Source of the DNA: an uncultured Acetatifactor sp.
Lineage (GTDB): Bacteria > Bacillota > Clostridia > Lachnospirales > Lachnospiraceae
NCBI GenBank assembly: GCA_947627535.1
Contig: CANQWM010000004.1
Span: 62,001 to 126,000 of the forward strand
Length of the DNA stretch: 64,000 bases
Direction: 5' to 3'
Shown here: positions 37,637 to 44,138 of the stretch, piece by piece
Numbering within the stretch: the first letter of the stretch is position 1
Layout: the number at the start of each line of letters is the position of its first letter
Program-made: the position numbers and the translations under genes
The notes under the pieces: model-generated
Database searches by the model: none
Told to the model about the DNA's origin: nothing
Seen by the model: only the letters and a program-made list of their open reading frames with translations

Positions 37637-37703
37637 GCAGCGTTTTATTCCTGTTCCGTCAGACATCGCGGCGGCAGTGTCTTATTCCTGTCCCGCCAGA
37701 CAG
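37637..37703. repeat. Direct repeat at the hemerythrin gene end
   Basis: A roughly 30-bp sequence occurs twice with a 37-bp period (37637-37666 and 37674-37703), differing at only a few positions (core TTATTCCTGT). One copy encodes the last residues and stop codon of the hemerythrin gene; the other lies just beyond. It looks like a small tandem duplication. Confidence 0.6.
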
Positions 37704-38572
37704 TGCAGAATCTCCAGCCTGCCGCAGTCCGTCTCAAAATCCAGCAGAATGCTTTTGCTGATATCAATGCGGGAATCCGAATATTCTTTCAGGAAGATAT
37801 CTCCCCTCCATTGAAACCCTGTATAGCTCTCCCGGTTGAGATAGGACAGCGCCTGGGAAGCGAGAATATCCCCCAGCTCTATCAGGGCGGACATCTCGAT
37901 GGCGTTGGGCCACTCCGTGTTCCTTATCTCCATCCCGCTGATCTTCCTGTACAGCGCCCGGGCCATCTCATCGGAAAATCCAAAGAGAAACACATAGTTT
38001 TTTTCTCCGCTGATGATGATCCTGACAAAGATTTTCCCTTCCACATAGCCCTTGTAGACGCTTGTGCGCGTACAGTTGACCTGGATCCCGTAAGTATCCG
38101 TCAAAAGCTGCACCGTCACCCTGCGGATCAGGTCGTCCGCCCCGTCGAAGCTCGTTTCAAGGGCGATGGGCCGGTTTCTCACGATCTTCCTGTCGCAGTC
38201 GCAGATATGCACCGTCAGCCAGGTCATCAGCGTTCCCAGCAGCTTTTTTAACGTCTCCTTGGAAAAATCTTTCTGCACCTTCTCCTGATAGGCAAGGACG
38301 GTATTTTTAAAATCTCTGTGGATCCGCACATGCTGGTCATAGCTGACATAACCGCGCTCCCTCTGCAGCGCCTCCTCCGCCTCAAAATGACGGATGGTGT
38401 AAGAGACCAGAAAATCCAGCAGCACCAGACATTCCCTTTTGTTCGCCGTCTCGTCCCCCGTCATGGCAACCGCGAGAAGCGCTTCCACCCTGCGGAACAG
38501 CTCCCTGTGCTGCGCATCTATTTCCTCGTCGCCGATCCTGTATTCCTCTTTCCAGAGTCTGACCTCTTCCAT
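37682..38572 (-). CDS. Bacteriohemerythrin with C-terminal CheX-like domain
   Basis: A 296-residue cytoplasmic protein. Residues 1-130 are a hemerythrin domain with all seven diiron ligands visible: His22, His62, Glu66, His81, His85, His122 and Asp127. It should bind O2. Residues about 150-296 resemble CheX/CheC-type domains (IIISGEKNYVFLFGFSDEMARALYRKISG; EMSALIELGDILASQALSYL), which dephosphorylate response regulators or bind signalling partners. The start at 38572 follows GGGAGG. It is the last gene of the signalling operon, so oxygen may feed into the phosphorelay (inference). Confidence 0.85.
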   Translation of the reverse strand: MEEVRLWKEEYRIGDEEIDAQHRELFRRVEALLAVAMTGDETANKRECLVLLDFLVSYTIRHFEAEEALQRERGYVSYDQHVRIHRDFKNTVLAYQEKVQKDFSKETLKKLLGTLMTWLTVHICDCDRKIVRNRPIALETSFDGADDLIRRVTVQLLTDTYGIQVNCTRTSVYKGYVEGKIFVRIIISGEKNYVFLFGFSDEMARALYRKISGMEIRNTEWPNAIEMSALIELGDILASQALSYLNRESYTGFQWRGDIFLKEYSDSRIDISKSILLDFETDCGRLEILHCLAGQE

Positions 38573-38604
38573 AAACAACCTCCCGTAAATTCCTGCCCGT
38601 CACG

Positions 38605-41274
38605 CTACCACTGCTTCAGACAGATCACACCGACGGTGCCAAGGCCGCAGTTACTTATGATGGTAGCGGATGCTTTCTGCAGGAAAACGCGCTCAAAATG
38701 CTGATAGCTTTTCAGCTGCTGCATGAACTCCTGCTGCTGTTTCACAGAGATTCCCGCATGGGTCAGGAAGCATACCTTGTCATCCAGCTGACTTACGTTG
38801 CGCATCTGCATTTTAATATACTTCAGATAGGCCTTCTCCGGACTTCCCAGGATGAGGGCCTGAAGCTTGATCCTGCTCTGGCTCATATACAGAACGGGAT
38901 GCAGGGAGAAAATCCTGCAGAGCGTCATTACCCCCTTGCCGATCTTGCCGTTTTGGTAAAGGGCTTCCGGCCTGGTGACAATAAAGCTGGTGGAAATACG
39001 ATCCCGGAAATCAGCCAGATCTTTCAGGATATCGGGGGCGCTCATGTTGCTCTGCGCCATCTTCGCGGCATACAGCACCAGCATCCCCATGCCGCTGGAG
39101 AGATGGCCGGAATCCACTACATGCACGTTGTCAAAGCCCTTCGCCGCCTCCATGGCCGCCGCGTAGCAGGAGCTGGTGTCCTTTGCCATCGTGATGTGGA
39201 TCACCTGCTCCGCCTTCTCAAGGGCATTGGCAAAGAGCGTTTCATACTCCTCCGGGGAAGCGTGTTCAGAGCGCACGGCGCTTCCGCCGTCTAACAGGTA
39301 AGGGACAAGGTTGTCGGCCGTAACCTCCCTGCCGTCGCAGAATCTTCCCTGATCCGTGTAAATATAATAGTACATGGTCTTGATCTCATACCGGTCCAGC
39401 CACTCCTTCGGCAGATCGCATACACAGTCCGCGGTAACGGCCACCTTTCTCCTCCGGATACCCATAACCTGCTGGATAACCTCTTCGGACTGCTCCTCCT
39501 CTTTGCCGCTGTACTCGATCAGCTCACTTGGCAGGAACTTTAGCAGCGTCGCTTCCAGAAGCGCACCGTTAATAGGCTTCGCGAGATAACTCTGAAAGCC
39601 GCTGTTCTGGTAGATTTCCTCCGCCCCCGACAGGGCGTTGGCCGTCAGCGCGATGACAGGCACATCCCGGCACAAGCCCTCCTGCTGTCTGCGCAGCCGT
39701 TTTAAGGTCTCCACGCCGTCCATGCCCGGCATCATATGATCCATAAAGATCACATGATAGAATTTTCCTCTGGTCTTCTCCAGGCACTCCTCCCCGCTGC
39801 CGGCGGTGTCCACCTGGACTTTCGTGCCGCGCAGAAGCTTGGTGGCAACCATCAGGTTCATTTCATTGTCATCCACCACCAGGACTCTCGCGTCCGGCGC
39901 CTCAAAGGTCTGTCTGTACTTGTCGCGGGCGGCGATCTTTTTCTTAATCATAAGGTCCAGAGGCCCTATGGGCTTCTCATCCATGATCTGCTGTTCCACG
40001 ACCACCGTAAAGGTAGAACCCTTGGTATAGATGCTGTCCACCGTGATCTTGCCGCCCATCATCTCGATGAGCTGTTTGGAGATGGAAAGTCCCAGACCGG
40101 TTCCCTCCACCTTCCGGTTCTTCTCCGTATCCATCCGCTTGTAGGTTTCAAACAGCTGGTCCATATCGTCTTTTTTAATTCCCATTCCCGTATCGGCCAC
40201 GGAAATCCTCAGCTTTACGCTGTTGGCTCCGCTCCGCTCCGCCTTGGCCCGCAGCGTCACGGATCCCCTCTCCGTATATTTCACGGCGTTGGTCAGGATA
40301 TTGGTCAATACCTGTTTTAACCGGATCTCATCTCCGTAAAGCATGGACGGGATCTCAGGGGAAATGTCGATCTTAAATTCCAGTTCCTTCTGGTGCGCCC
40401 GCACCCAGATAATGTTTACCAGGTCGCTGAACATGGCGCCTGTCTCGTACCGGGTGGGAACGATCTCCATCTTGCCGGATTCCAGCTTTGACAGATCCAG
40501 AATATCGTTAATCAGCGTCAGCAGCATTTTGCTGGCGTTCTGGATATTGATGGAGTTTTCCGCGATCTCATCCGAGATATCCTCCCGGAGCGTCATTTCG
40601 TTCAGGCCGATAATGGTATTGATGGGCGTGCGGATCTCATGGCTCATATTGGCGAAGAAGGCGCTCTGGGAACGGCTGATCTCCTCGATCTGCTCCTTCT
40701 GCTCTTCCGTGACCTTGACTTCTCTCTCATACACGGCGTTCTGCATCTTGATCAGCATACCGATCAGCACGGAGGCGAGGACCAGCGCGGCGGCACAGTC
40801 AAAATAAACATACCCGCTGCCGTTGATGGGCAGGATCCAGTCCGGGAACAGGTAACCCAGCACAAAGGTCACACAGATCGCGAGAAGGGAATACACGGTC
40901 AGCGCCAACAGCTTTTTTCCCCGAAACATCAGAAATACCAGGGTCACGCCTACCAGAAACCAGACAGACGCGCCGCTCTGCGCACCGCCGTTTAAGAAAA
41001 AGATGACCGGAAATACCACTCCGTTTGCCAGGAGGACGAAGAGCAAGGCAAAAGCCTCAAACTTCCTGTATTTCACCGAGCTTCGAAGCCCCAGCACCAT
41101 AAGCACCAGCAGAACCAGAAGAGGCAGGAGCACAACGGGGGACTGGCCCTGAATAATGCTGGTGAAGATATTAAAGACCACCGCCGTCATCCCCAGCATT
41201 ACGATCAATCTGAACAATCGCTCCCGCAGGCTGATGTCTTCATCCAGCTGCCTGCGGATCCATTTTTTCAACAT
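38605..41274 (-). CDS. Hybrid histidine kinase-receiver-DegV fusion
   Basis: An 889-residue protein with three parts. Residues 20-178 hold about six transmembrane spans. Residues 200-430 are a kinase: His212 in FFANMSHEIRTP, N box NILTNAVKY, DTGMG and GTGLGL. Residues 462-585 are a receiver: VLVVDDNEMN, Asp512 in FMDHMMPGMDG, and Lys566 in AKP. Residues 608-887 match DegV/FakB fatty-acid-binding proteins: VTADCVCDLPKEW, SEHASPEEYETLF, ITMAKDTSSCYAAAMEAA and VVDSGHLSSGMGMLV. DegV proteins bind fatty acids for phosphorylation by FakA; here the domain probably senses lipid and tunes the kinase (inference). The start is six bases after the stop of the next kinase gene. Confidence 0.93.
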   Translation of the reverse strand: MLKKWIRRQLDEDISLRERLFRLIVMLGMTAVVFNIFTSIIQGQSPVVLLPLLVLLVLMVLGLRSSVKYRKFEAFALLFVLLANGVVFPVIFFLNGGAQSGASVWFLVGVTLVFLMFRGKKLLALTVYSLLAICVTFVLGYLFPDWILPINGSGYVYFDCAAALVLASVLIGMLIKMQNAVYEREVKVTEEQKEQIEEISRSQSAFFANMSHEIRTPINTIIGLNEMTLREDISDEIAENSINIQNASKMLLTLINDILDLSKLESGKMEIVPTRYETGAMFSDLVNIIWVRAHQKELEFKIDISPEIPSMLYGDEIRLKQVLTNILTNAVKYTERGSVTLRAKAERSGANSVKLRISVADTGMGIKKDDMDQLFETYKRMDTEKNRKVEGTGLGLSISKQLIEMMGGKITVDSIYTKGSTFTVVVEQQIMDEKPIGPLDLMIKKKIAARDKYRQTFEAPDARVLVVDDNEMNLMVATKLLRGTKVQVDTAGSGEECLEKTRGKFYHVIFMDHMMPGMDGVETLKRLRRQQEGLCRDVPVIALTANALSGAEEIYQNSGFQSYLAKPINGALLEATLLKFLPSELIEYSGKEEEQSEEVIQQVMGIRRRKVAVTADCVCDLPKEWLDRYEIKTMYYYIYTDQGRFCDGREVTADNLVPYLLDGGSAVRSEHASPEEYETLFANALEKAEQVIHITMAKDTSSCYAAAMEAAKGFDNVHVVDSGHLSSGMGMLVLYAAKMAQSNMSAPDILKDLADFRDRISTSFIVTRPEALYQNGKIGKGVMTLCRIFSLHPVLYMSQSRIKLQALILGSPEKAYLKYIKMQMRNVSQLDDKVCFLTHAGISVKQQQEFMQQLKSYQHFERVFLQKASATIISNCGLGTVGVICLKQW

Positions 41275-41280
41275 AGCGCT

Positions 41281-44088
41281 TTACCCCAGCCTTTCTCTGA
41301 TACCAGCCAACCTGTCCTCTGCTCCCATAAAATCAAACTTTGCCGCCGCTGCCCGCACAGGCTCCAGCAGCTCCTGCAGGGGCTGGCCCTCCCAGGCGTA
41401 TTCCCTAAGCTTCGCAAAGATCTCCTCCACCGCTTCGCTCTCGAAGGTTTCCAGCGCCTCCTGCATTTCTTTCAAAAGGGCTTCCAGCTGTCCGCCGTCA
41501 ATCTTGGTCAGCCCCTCTCCCGGCGCATCCGCACCGGACACGGCCGGGCCGGATTCCCCGCCGTCTTCCGCGGACGGCTCAGGCGCCTTTGTCCCGGCGC
41601 TGATCCTGGGGTCTTCTCCCAGTACGTCAAGCACTCTCTCATATTCGTCCATCATTTCCTGGTGGTGGTCAAAAATATAAGATTCCTCCCCGCTCTTGCC
41701 GGCCCGCTCCAGCTCCTTCGCCATATCCGAAAGCTTTGCCGCGCCGATTCCAAGGGAAGTGCTCTTTACCGCATGTACCAGAATGGAATAATTCTTCCAA
41801 TCCCTGTTCTCATAAAAGCCCTGGATCTCCTTCTTCTTTTCAAGCCCCGAGGTGTAGTAGATCTGCACCACTTCCAGATAATCCTGAACCCTTCCGCCGC
41901 AGTAGGTAATGCCCTGCTTTACATCGATACCGTCGAAGGCAACCTGGGGCTCTTCCGTCTCCTTCCGGAGGGCTCTCCCCGGGCTTTTCTTTTCCGAAAG
42001 CTTCGCCGCTTCCTCCGCGCTGAGCTTCGTAATCTTCTGCTGGGGAATGTAGCGCAGCAGGACTCTCTCCAGCACGGAAAGCTCAATGGGCTTCGCCACA
42101 AAGTCCTGGAACCCTTCCGCGAGGAACATCTCCCTTGCGCCGCCGATGGCGTTCGCCGTCAGCGCGATAATGGGAACCGTCTGGAAATACTTTCCGGGCT
42201 TCTGGCGGATCCTGTGCATGGTCTCCACACCGTCCATCTCCGGCATCATATGATCCATGAATACAAAGTCGTAATCCATGGTTTCGATCTTTTTCAGGGC
42301 CTCCTTGCCGCTGTATGCCGCAAATACCTTGATCTGATACGGGCGCAGCAGGCCCTCCACCACCTTTACGTTCATCATATTGTCGTCCACGACCAGAATA
42401 CTGGACGCGGGCGCAATAAACCGGCTGCCGCTCCTTCCGCTCTGGCTAAGGCTCTGCGTCACATGCTCGCCGTTTAAGACGGCCGCCATGGCCACGGCGT
42501 AGAAGGGCTTGTAGATCCGTAAAAGCCTTCCCGAGACCTCCTCGTCGTTCTCCCGATCCAGCACCAGCACCACCGGAATCCGCTCCGCAAGCTGGTCGAA
42601 CCACTCCTTGTCCTCGCAGTATTCCTCCCAGCAGATAAACACATGGGAGTATCTGGTGTTTTCCAGACGCCGCTTTAATTCCGCCAGGTTGCGGCACTGC
42701 TTAAAGCGGAAGCCCAGCTGATCCACCATGTACCGGATGCAGTCCTCATAGCCGTCCCTGGTGGCGGCATAGGAATATTTCTCCATGTTAATATAGGAAA
42801 CAACGTTGATGGACTCCGGATTTTTCAGGGAGATAATCGCGGTATCGTCCACCACCTTCTGGGGCACCACAAACTGAAATTCGCTTCCCTGTCCCGGCGT
42901 GCTGGTCACGGTGATAAACCCGCCCATCTTCCGGACGATGGCCTGGGAAATGGCAAGGCCCAGACCCACGCCGCCCTCCTGGCGGTTGCGCTTGGTATCC
43001 ACCTGGTTAAAGCTGGAAAACAGCTTTTCCAGCTCCGCGTCGTTCATGCCGATACCCGTATCCTTCACGTTTACAATCAGATTGACGCCGTACTCCTCCC
43101 TGCGCGCGGAAAGCGTAACGGTCACACAGCCCTCCTGGGTAAATTTCACCGCGTTTCCCACCAGGTTCATAATGACCCTGCGCAGCTTCTGTTCGTCCCC
43201 CATCATGCCGCTGGGGATGTTGGCGTCGCAGGAGACGATCAGCTCGATGTGCTTCCCGTTTAGCTGGGCGTTGGTCATGTTCATTACGTCGTTCAGCGTG
43301 GACGTAATGTTGTAGGGCTCCTCCACCAGATCCATCTTGCCTGACTCCAGCTCGGAAAAATCCAGGATATCGCTGACGATGGACAGAAGATTCCGCCCTG
43401 CCGTCTGAATGTCGAACACCTCACCCCGCACGGCGGGCTCCAGATCCTCCCGCAGCAGCATCTCGCTCATGCCGCAGACCGTGTTGATGGGGGTCCGGAT
43501 CTCGTGGGAGACATTGGCCATAAAGTCATTCTTGCTCTGCTCCACCCGCTTCAGCGCTGCGGCGCTGTCCGCCAGCTGCTTCCCCGTCTCCAGCTGACGC
43601 CGGATCAGATACCAGGTCACATATTCCACCAGATACACGGAAGCAATTTTCAGAACGGCCCCGAAGAGGCCGCCGCCCGTCCCCGCAAAGGGAATGTCCC
43701 GCAGGATCACGCCATGGTAGAACAAAAGAAAGGTGGATCCGCCCGCGGATATGAAAACGATCTCGGGAATACAGTAGATGCCCAGCAGCACGATCATGCC
43801 GGCCATGGTAGAAAGAAGATCAAAATAGTCTTTTGCGTGAACGCCATATAAGACGAAGTTAATCCACGCCATAAACGTGACGAGAAACGCGCGGAAACGG
43901 TAGTCCTTCACTTTTTTGAGGAAAGCGCCCCAGCAGAATGCCATGCCGCAAAGGATGACCGGCGCGATCCACTGTCCCCAGGAGTCCACAAGCGACGTCA
44001 CCGACATGGCAATGGAATAGACGGTATATACGATCAGAATGATCTGTTCCACATTTTTCTGACTCTCCGGACGATTCTCTCGTGTCAT
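41281..44088 (-). CDS. Hybrid histidine kinase with receiver and HPt domains
   Basis: A 935-residue BarA-like hybrid kinase. Residues 10-165 are transmembrane. Kinase: His195 in FMANVSHEIRTP, N box NLVGNAVKF, DTGIGM and GVGLGLAI. Residues about 420-545 look like a receiver that has lost its phosphoacceptor pattern. Residues 563-680 are a full receiver (VVDDNMMN, Asp612 in FMDHMMPEMDG, AKP). Residues about 715-815 are an HPt domain with His772 in VHAVKSTSLG. A low-complexity linker leads to a last helical segment. The start at 44088 is chosen because GAGGGAGC precedes it. It sits between the HD-GYP regulator and the kinase-DegV gene. Confidence 0.92.
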   Translation of the reverse strand: MTRENRPESQKNVEQIILIVYTVYSIAMSVTSLVDSWGQWIAPVILCGMAFCWGAFLKKVKDYRFRAFLVTFMAWINFVLYGVHAKDYFDLLSTMAGMIVLLGIYCIPEIVFISAGGSTFLLFYHGVILRDIPFAGTGGGLFGAVLKIASVYLVEYVTWYLIRRQLETGKQLADSAAALKRVEQSKNDFMANVSHEIRTPINTVCGMSEMLLREDLEPAVRGEVFDIQTAGRNLLSIVSDILDFSELESGKMDLVEEPYNITSTLNDVMNMTNAQLNGKHIELIVSCDANIPSGMMGDEQKLRRVIMNLVGNAVKFTQEGCVTVTLSARREEYGVNLIVNVKDTGIGMNDAELEKLFSSFNQVDTKRNRQEGGVGLGLAISQAIVRKMGGFITVTSTPGQGSEFQFVVPQKVVDDTAIISLKNPESINVVSYINMEKYSYAATRDGYEDCIRYMVDQLGFRFKQCRNLAELKRRLENTRYSHVFICWEEYCEDKEWFDQLAERIPVVLVLDRENDEEVSGRLLRIYKPFYAVAMAAVLNGEHVTQSLSQSGRSGSRFIAPASSILVVDDNMMNVKVVEGLLRPYQIKVFAAYSGKEALKKIETMDYDFVFMDHMMPEMDGVETMHRIRQKPGKYFQTVPIIALTANAIGGAREMFLAEGFQDFVAKPIELSVLERVLLRYIPQQKITKLSAEEAAKLSEKKSPGRALRKETEEPQVAFDGIDVKQGITYCGGRVQDYLEVVQIYYTSGLEKKKEIQGFYENRDWKNYSILVHAVKSTSLGIGAAKLSDMAKELERAGKSGEESYIFDHHQEMMDEYERVLDVLGEDPRISAGTKAPEPSAEDGGESGPAVSGADAPGEGLTKIDGGQLEALLKEMQEALETFESEAVEEIFAKLREYAWEGQPLQELLEPVRAAAAKFDFMGAEDRLAGIRERLG

Positions 44089-44138
44089 GCTCCCTCTCAT
44101 TCTGCCGCCGGGCGGCCGCTCATCCCGTCAGGATCCGC

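Follow-up and report, generated by a model that had tools for sequence, protein, structure and literature searches.

In a 64,000-nucleotide stretch of DNA from an uncultured Acetatifactor sp. (hereafter the window), a complete DegV domain is fused to the C-terminus of a membrane hybrid histidine kinase (HK-REC-DegV), and the gene directly upstream encodes a second hybrid kinase, which carries an Hpt domain (Table 1). We lean slightly towards reading the two genes as a phosphorelay of paired kinases whose cytosolic ligand-sensing module would be a neofunctionalised domain of the DegV/FakB fold. Read along the minus strand, the genes encode REC-HD-GYP, HK-REC-Hpt, HK-REC-DegV and a hemerythrin-domain protein in turn, separated by 38, 6 and 26 nt.

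Table 1 Features of the fusion gene and its neighbours in the window
Feature	Position	Strand	Basis
HK-REC-DegV fusion gene, 889 aa	38605..41274	(-)	ORF list, Pfam, NCBIfam
N-terminal membrane part, residues 1-180	40735..41274	(-)	Sequence, hydropathy
HisKA, residues 203-267, phospho-acceptor His212	40474..40668	(-)	Pfam, 59.9 bits
HATPase_c, residues 314-428	39991..40335	(-)	Pfam, 98.2 bits
Receiver (Response_reg), residues 464-575, Asp512	39550..39885	(-)	Pfam, 77.9 bits
DegV, residues 610-886, Asn875 at FakB1 His270, Leu at FakB1 Arg205	38617..39447	(-)	Pfam, residue mapping
Partner hybrid kinase HK-REC-Hpt, 939 aa, Hpt 743-819	41281..44100	(-)	Pfam, gene order
Response regulator REC-HD-GYP, 364 aa	44139..45233	(-)	Pfam, motifs
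Bacteriohemerythrin-like N-terminal domain plus C-terminal part	37682..38578	(-)	Pfam; 26 nt downstream of fusion

A complete DegV domain joined to a hybrid kinase

The fusion gene starts with ATG and forms one uninterrupted frame of 889 aa with no internal stop, and the preliminary description was right that no break separates the domains. All four domains (HisKA, HATPase_c, receiver and DegV) exceed their Pfam cut-offs, the DegV domain covering profile positions 1-278 of 280 in PF02645 (140.3 bits, cut-off 27) and reaching 145 bits against NCBIfam TIGR00762 (cut-off 99.7). His212 lies within SHEIRTP (from residue 211) and Asp512 within FMDHMMP (from 510), so that both catalytic residues are intact as had been claimed; among 121 aligned fusions, position 212 is His in 116 and position 512 is Asp in 119. 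With a HisKA containing its His, the ATPase boxes and a receiver containing its Asp, the protein is a hybrid histidine kinase by its parts. Judged by eye, the membrane part has about six hydrophobic segments and no large extracytoplasmic loop (a hydropathy script overcounts transmembrane segments, and the figure obtained by eye is used instead). The lack of a sizable extracytoplasmic domain makes it more likely that the input comes through the cytosolic DegV domain or the membrane part.

The fusion is real, neither chance nor assembly error, because a paralogue exists in the same genome, relatives have the same layout and many genomes of the family contain fusions. Six DegV loci were found in the genome: four are standalone and two lie in frames of about 890 aa (the window and G000:C33). 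Three relatives titled Acetatifactor (L092, L093 and L106) show an identical 889-aa layout, with DegV identities of 72, 59 and 84%, respectively. With the DegV domain as query, frames that combine DegV with kinase and/or receiver domains, checked for these domains afterwards, were found among the matches listed in at least 38 of 250 family genomes, the organism's own included (249 genera), which together with the paralogue argues against the assembly error that the preliminary description had allowed for. The distribution is patchy, a long fused frame being present in 3 of 13 genomes of the window's genus. A class-wide sample of 391 genomes has long frames at E<=1e-68 in nine, of which six belong to family f1 and three to a single f187 genus (domains verified in all but G958), and in a phylum-wide sample of 398 the matches listed contain fusions in three genomes, all f1. 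Taken as given, the titles of the best 80 of 521 relatives are mostly of Lachnospiraceae or other Clostridia, the nearest three being Acetatifactor, and a few name unrelated bacteria, e.g. Alistipes and Gastranaerophilales.

It is extremely improbable that the DegV part has no function and is simply carried along, or that it is an assembly artefact. The data are from a MAG, and the chain is divided into two frames at L096 and L109, perhaps through sequence errors; against this, the DegV domains concerned form one clade with near-invariant, clade-specific residues in many genera, and the genome has a second copy. Assembly artefact or frameshift is ruled out by the paralogue and by related loci in independent assemblies.

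A few loci depart from the usual layout. At L066:5431-8304 the DegV domain is N-terminal, ahead of a membrane part and HK-REC, in a single case at a contig end. At L084:5790-8378 and L086:5951-8563 DegV is fused to a HATPase protein with no HisKA or receiver match, and by their domain content these proteins are probably pseudokinases; in L084 the alignment puts a His at 212, yet the domain search finds no HisKA, and two GGDEF proteins come next.

The partner kinase and its Hpt domain

Gene order was compared in a module gene set composed of the window, L037-L091 (55 loci picked from the listed family matches, i.e. long frames and four strong standalone DegVs, weaker standalones being left out) and L092-L170 (the best 79 loci of 521 relatives), which gave 131 distinct DegV genes after five duplicates were dropped. 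Counts from this set do not represent independent events, as the loci are related and their selection rested on resemblance to the fused DegV. Genes were called with a simple longest-frame script, with rough starts and overlaps, and Hpt and neighbour domains were sought by phmmer with single query sequences (E<=1e-4 for kinase parts, E<=1e-8 for output genes), for which reason absent neighbour domains may be misses.

An HK-REC kinase gene is directly followed by the DegV gene in 112 of the 131 cases, and the kinase has an Hpt in 103 of these 112. The gene directly upstream on the same strand encodes HK-REC-Hpt in 102 cases (96 fused and 6 standalone DegVs), HK-REC-REC-Hpt in one, HK-REC in nine, REC-Hpt in four and other products in eight (one each of REC, HK, NTD, NTD-HK, NTD-HK-REC and a tandem fusion, and two without any of these domains); three of the remaining DegV genes have a neighbour on the opposite strand and four lie at contig ends. 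Spacing to the HK-REC partner is between -4 and +35 nt in 81 of 112 pairs. At L148, two tandem HK-REC-DegV genes stand behind one HK-REC-Hpt gene.

Where the partner is without Hpt, as in nine pairs, the operon has one elsewhere, six times in the fusion itself (HK-REC-DegV-Hpt) and three times in another gene. The set contains seven such Hpt-bearing fusions, six with an Hpt-less partner and one at a contig end. The Hpt of the window partner scores 20.4 bits, below the Pfam cut-off of 24.6, and both long fusions scanned by Pfam have an Hpt above the cut-off; of the 107 partner Hpts examined, 105 have the motif HxxK(S/G/A), as do all seven long fusions. The two kinases of the window are themselves related (37% over 303 aa and 47% over 137 aa). 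We consider this Hpt complementarity, with the Hpt in the partner or else elsewhere in the operon or fusion, the strongest evidence that both kinase genes would form one relay.

The HK-REC(-Hpt) relay layout is shared with the hybrid kinases BarA, TorS and ArcB, and BarA and TorS give the best NCBIfam scores, which are far under the curated cut-offs (330 vs. 890 bits for BarA). The module differs from these kinases in that DegV replaces or precedes Hpt and in that an operon has two kinases, usually with one Hpt between them. The phosphorelay reading of the preliminary description, which had overlooked the conserved Hpt-bearing partner and the putative c-di-GMP regulator, stands as regards intact kinase, receiver and DegV domains in one chain with adjoining partners, but not as regards the link to free fatty acid.

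The DegV domain compared with FakB

DegV/FakB proteins are carriers feeding fatty acid kinase. DhaQ, a co-activator of L. lactis (2iu4), works with a transcription factor and not with a phosphorelay, and SaeS is not known to have a DegV domain. The closest known FakB/DegV proteins (S. aureus FakB1 and FakB2; S. suis and S. pneumoniae FakB2; 2dt8) are free of kinase fusion or operon, unlike the module, which has furthermore replaced His270 by Asn, lost Arg205, often has Lys for Arg173 and has a more polar lid. The predicted fold of the window domain is FakB-like with high confidence, in keeping with the original assignment to DegV. As described in PMC9136124, the FakA C-terminal domain (6w6b, PF13684) is without the tunnel-forming insertions of FakB; the window domain does not share this trait and has the full FakB length.

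According to PMC8892158, the carboxylate network of FakB1 consists of Thr62, Ser95, Ser171 and His270, and mutations in it lead to unstable FakB. The same source describes Arg173 as required for catalysis, Arg205 as key to FakA binding and first membrane contact (PMC9136124 likewise has it as the FakA-docking residue), both arginines as completely conserved in FakB, and Trp180 as a lid residue that inserts in the membrane. When these residues are mapped via the actual FakB1 sequence, the window domain has Ser for Thr62, keeps Ser95, and has Asn for both Ser171 and His270, Lys for Arg173 and Leu for Arg205; it therefore has neither arginine nor the full carboxylate network of a FakB. The direct link to free fatty acid claimed in the preliminary description is not supported as stated, given the changes at His270, Arg205 and Arg173 and the altered network.

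These changes are general in the module. The comparison included 129 module domains (the 131 minus L083 and L091, which group with canonical DegVs in the tree) and 36 canonical ones, i.e. 32 DegVs from the same or related genomes (the best-scoring PF02645 loci, 32 of 32 fetched), FakB2, 2dt8, L083 and L091. The His270 site is Asn in 122, His in 2 and another residue in 5 of 129 module domains, and His in 36 of 36 canonical ones (34 of 34 without L083 and L091). Arg is kept at the Arg205 site in 1 of 129 vs. 32 of 36, and the Arg173 site, Arg in all 36 canonical domains, is Lys in 56, Arg in 42 and another residue in 31 module domains. Position 62 is Ser in 99 and Thr in 15 (canonical: Thr 30, Ser 6) and position 95 is Ser in 92 and Gly in 26 (canonical: Ser 36/36). 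The Ser171 site (Asn 60, Ser 20) is not diagnostic, as it is Gly in 35 of 36 canonical domains. At the lid position of Trp180, Lys or Arg occurs in 69 of 129 module domains and in 0 of 37 canonical ones. Clade-specific sites, counted in the same 129 and 37 domains, are Thr640 (126 vs. 0), Gly643 (124 vs. 1), Ser869 (126 vs. 4), Asn875 (122 vs. 0) and Cys786 (107 vs. 0).

The tunnel positions remain apolar, which makes a lipid ligand plausible: in the 129 module domains, position 121 is Leu, Ile or Val in 128, position 162 Val, Ile, Leu or Met in 123 and position 191 Leu, Ile, Val, Phe or Met in 127, while position 158 is Thr or Ser in 116. The head group of such a ligand might be that of a free fatty acid, and another lipid head group is at least as likely. 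A specific sensor of long-chain fatty acid, free or exogenous, would be a narrower case of the favoured ligand-sensing explanation and is a tentative possibility. Many DegV/FakB structures in the fold match list carry titles of fatty-acid complexes, Ser or Thr is present at position 62 in 114 of 129 domains in addition to the 92 with Ser95, and fatty acids are reported to inhibit another sensor kinase system, SaeRS (PMC5539427). This effect of fatty acid level on a sensor kinase system is a likeness to the proposed module; the action of fatty acid kinase there is indirect, through a smaller pool of fatty acid inside the cell (PMC5539427). A fatty-acid-specific sensor is, however, at odds with the Asn at the His270 site, the more polar lid, the mostly replaced Ser171 (a site that says little) and the instability of FakB carboxylate-network mutants (PMC8892158). 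The head-group changes and the greater polarity of the lid could also mean that the domain has lost lipid binding or exchange with the membrane.

Another explanation, in which the DegV part still serves FakA as a FakB-type carrier and fatty acid kinase is controlled by the kinase part, with DegV as output, appears quite improbable. The genome does encode FakA, and Arg or Lys is present at catalytic position 173 in 98 of 129 domains. On the other hand, the docking residue Arg205 (PMC8892158 and PMC9136124) is kept in a single domain, position 173 is Lys in many domains and neither Arg nor Lys in others, His270 is mostly gone, and the FakA gene lies on another contig than the fusion. The sole FakA-like_C match above the cut-off in the genome (G000:C2:46413-47060, L003) has a standalone DegV gene on the same strand at a distance of about 2.3 kb, which suggests that the organism has a canonical fatty acid kinase pair in addition to the fusion.

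All seven standalone DegVs of the module have the Asn and are without Arg205; six adjoin HK-REC-Hpt, and the one at L096 follows a separate NTD-HK-REC frame. Since the standalones share both features, Asn and the loss of Arg205 go with kinase partnership and not with covalent fusion, and a domain with these clade-wide changes no longer resembles a FakB that serves FakA. The residues at the Arg205, Arg173 and His270 sites make service to FakA unlikely. The main rival is a protein-docking scaffold, comparable to the FakA C-terminal DegV-like domain, that would hold together the two kinases or a carrier protein without binding any lipid. FakA_C, a relative of DegV with no tunnel, binds FakB (PMC9136124), the covalent geometry is not fixed, as DegV is also a separate gene and once N-terminal (L066), and the surface docking Arg205 and the head-group His270 are both changed. 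We regard a scaffold as unlikely.

At 20 strong standalone loci from families other than f1 no kinase is found among the displayed neighbours (some contigs are short), and the His is retained in 22 of 22 DegV genes, within His-Cys-Gly in 20 and within His-Thr-Gly in 2. The same is true of L237 and L238, where likewise no kinase neighbour was found; in f187, L235 and L236 show the customary gene pair together with the Asn. A quick maximum-likelihood tree (115 of 165 DegV domains) unites the module members in one clade (SH-aLRT 100), with six standalone members (84) as sister to the rest (98). The simplest reading of this topology would be that a DegV gene beside an HK-REC-Hpt gene later joined a second HK-REC in one frame. 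On the DegV tree, two changes are required to account for the Hpt-bearing fusions; a single origin is possible.

Outputs and signalling context

The response regulator next to the partner kinase contains HDVGK and HHERWDGKGYP (HD_5, 112.3 bits), which match the HD and HHExxDGxGYP motifs of HD-GYP c-di-GMP phosphodiesterases. By these motifs it is likely a c-di-GMP phosphodiesterase output. When three contiguous same-strand genes on either side were considered, 75 of the 131 operons contained genes for c-di-GMP enzymes (HD-GYP 64, GGDEF 17, EAL 1), 11 more contained an MCP and 16 more a lone receiver, and 29 had none of the tested outputs. Among genes more than four away, taken as background, c-di-GMP enzymes make up at most 4 of 332 and MCPs 9 of 332; the MCP link (12 operons) is weak evidence because MCPs are common in the background too. 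At L044:13054-14921, MCP and CheW genes lie upstream of the kinase pair. The window's own genome has 13 GGDEF matches, which makes c-di-GMP signalling likely in this organism.

In the paired-kinase reading favoured here, a candidate acyl-chain ligand would fill the hydrophobic tunnel of the DegV domain and alter the attached HK-REC. Phosphate would then pass from His212 to Asp512, on to the Hpt in the HK-REC-Hpt partner and from there to REC-HD-GYP, changing c-di-GMP. The membrane part could be the sensor instead, or an SBP_bac_3 protein encoded downstream. SBP_bac_3 genes lie directly downstream of HK-REC-DegV at L041:6820-7653, L042:6587-7387 and L144:8882-9688, so other inputs may add in; the three loci checked belong to one subclade, which includes the C33 paralogue. 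The hemerythrin-domain protein of the window may be outside the module. Its gene is found downstream of the fusion at four loci (window, L092, L093 and L230) and is absent from this place in the nearest relative, L106. Its C-terminal part of about 150 aa has no Pfam match and matches no PDB sequence below E 0.8; CheX would be a guess.

A wider interpretation, possible though doubtful, is that the module represents a distinct class of DegV-based chemoreceptors in gut Clostridia, derived from a FakB relative that would have departed from lipid metabolism, with an altered head-group site for a lipid-like signal other than free fatty acid and a two-kinase relay leading to c-di-GMP or chemotaxis-type outputs. 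The putative head-group site would be the one where Thr640, Ser869 and Asn875 are near-invariant and where the His and the docking Arg are lost. As an extreme form of this interpretation, and very improbably, a bound acyl phosphate might itself donate phosphate to the receiver. So far as open-access PMC full text was covered, no description of a DegV-histidine kinase fusion was found, and DegV appears as a gene neighbour in PMC3146951. Both domain types are known to domain databases, whose architecture listings may hold the combination.

If the paired-kinase reading is true, one clade of DegV/FakB proteins would act as signal receptors, without the FakA-docking residue and tied to a two-kinase phosphorelay as fused or neighbouring domains. 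To our knowledge, the ligands of sensors in gut Lachnospiraceae are mostly unknown. The conserved kinase pair with a domain resembling a fatty acid carrier suggests an unstudied route from a lipid-like signal to a cellular response, and the gene pair is small enough for direct testing. Such a clade would offer a concrete entry to lipid signalling and c-di-GMP control in gut Lachnospiraceae.
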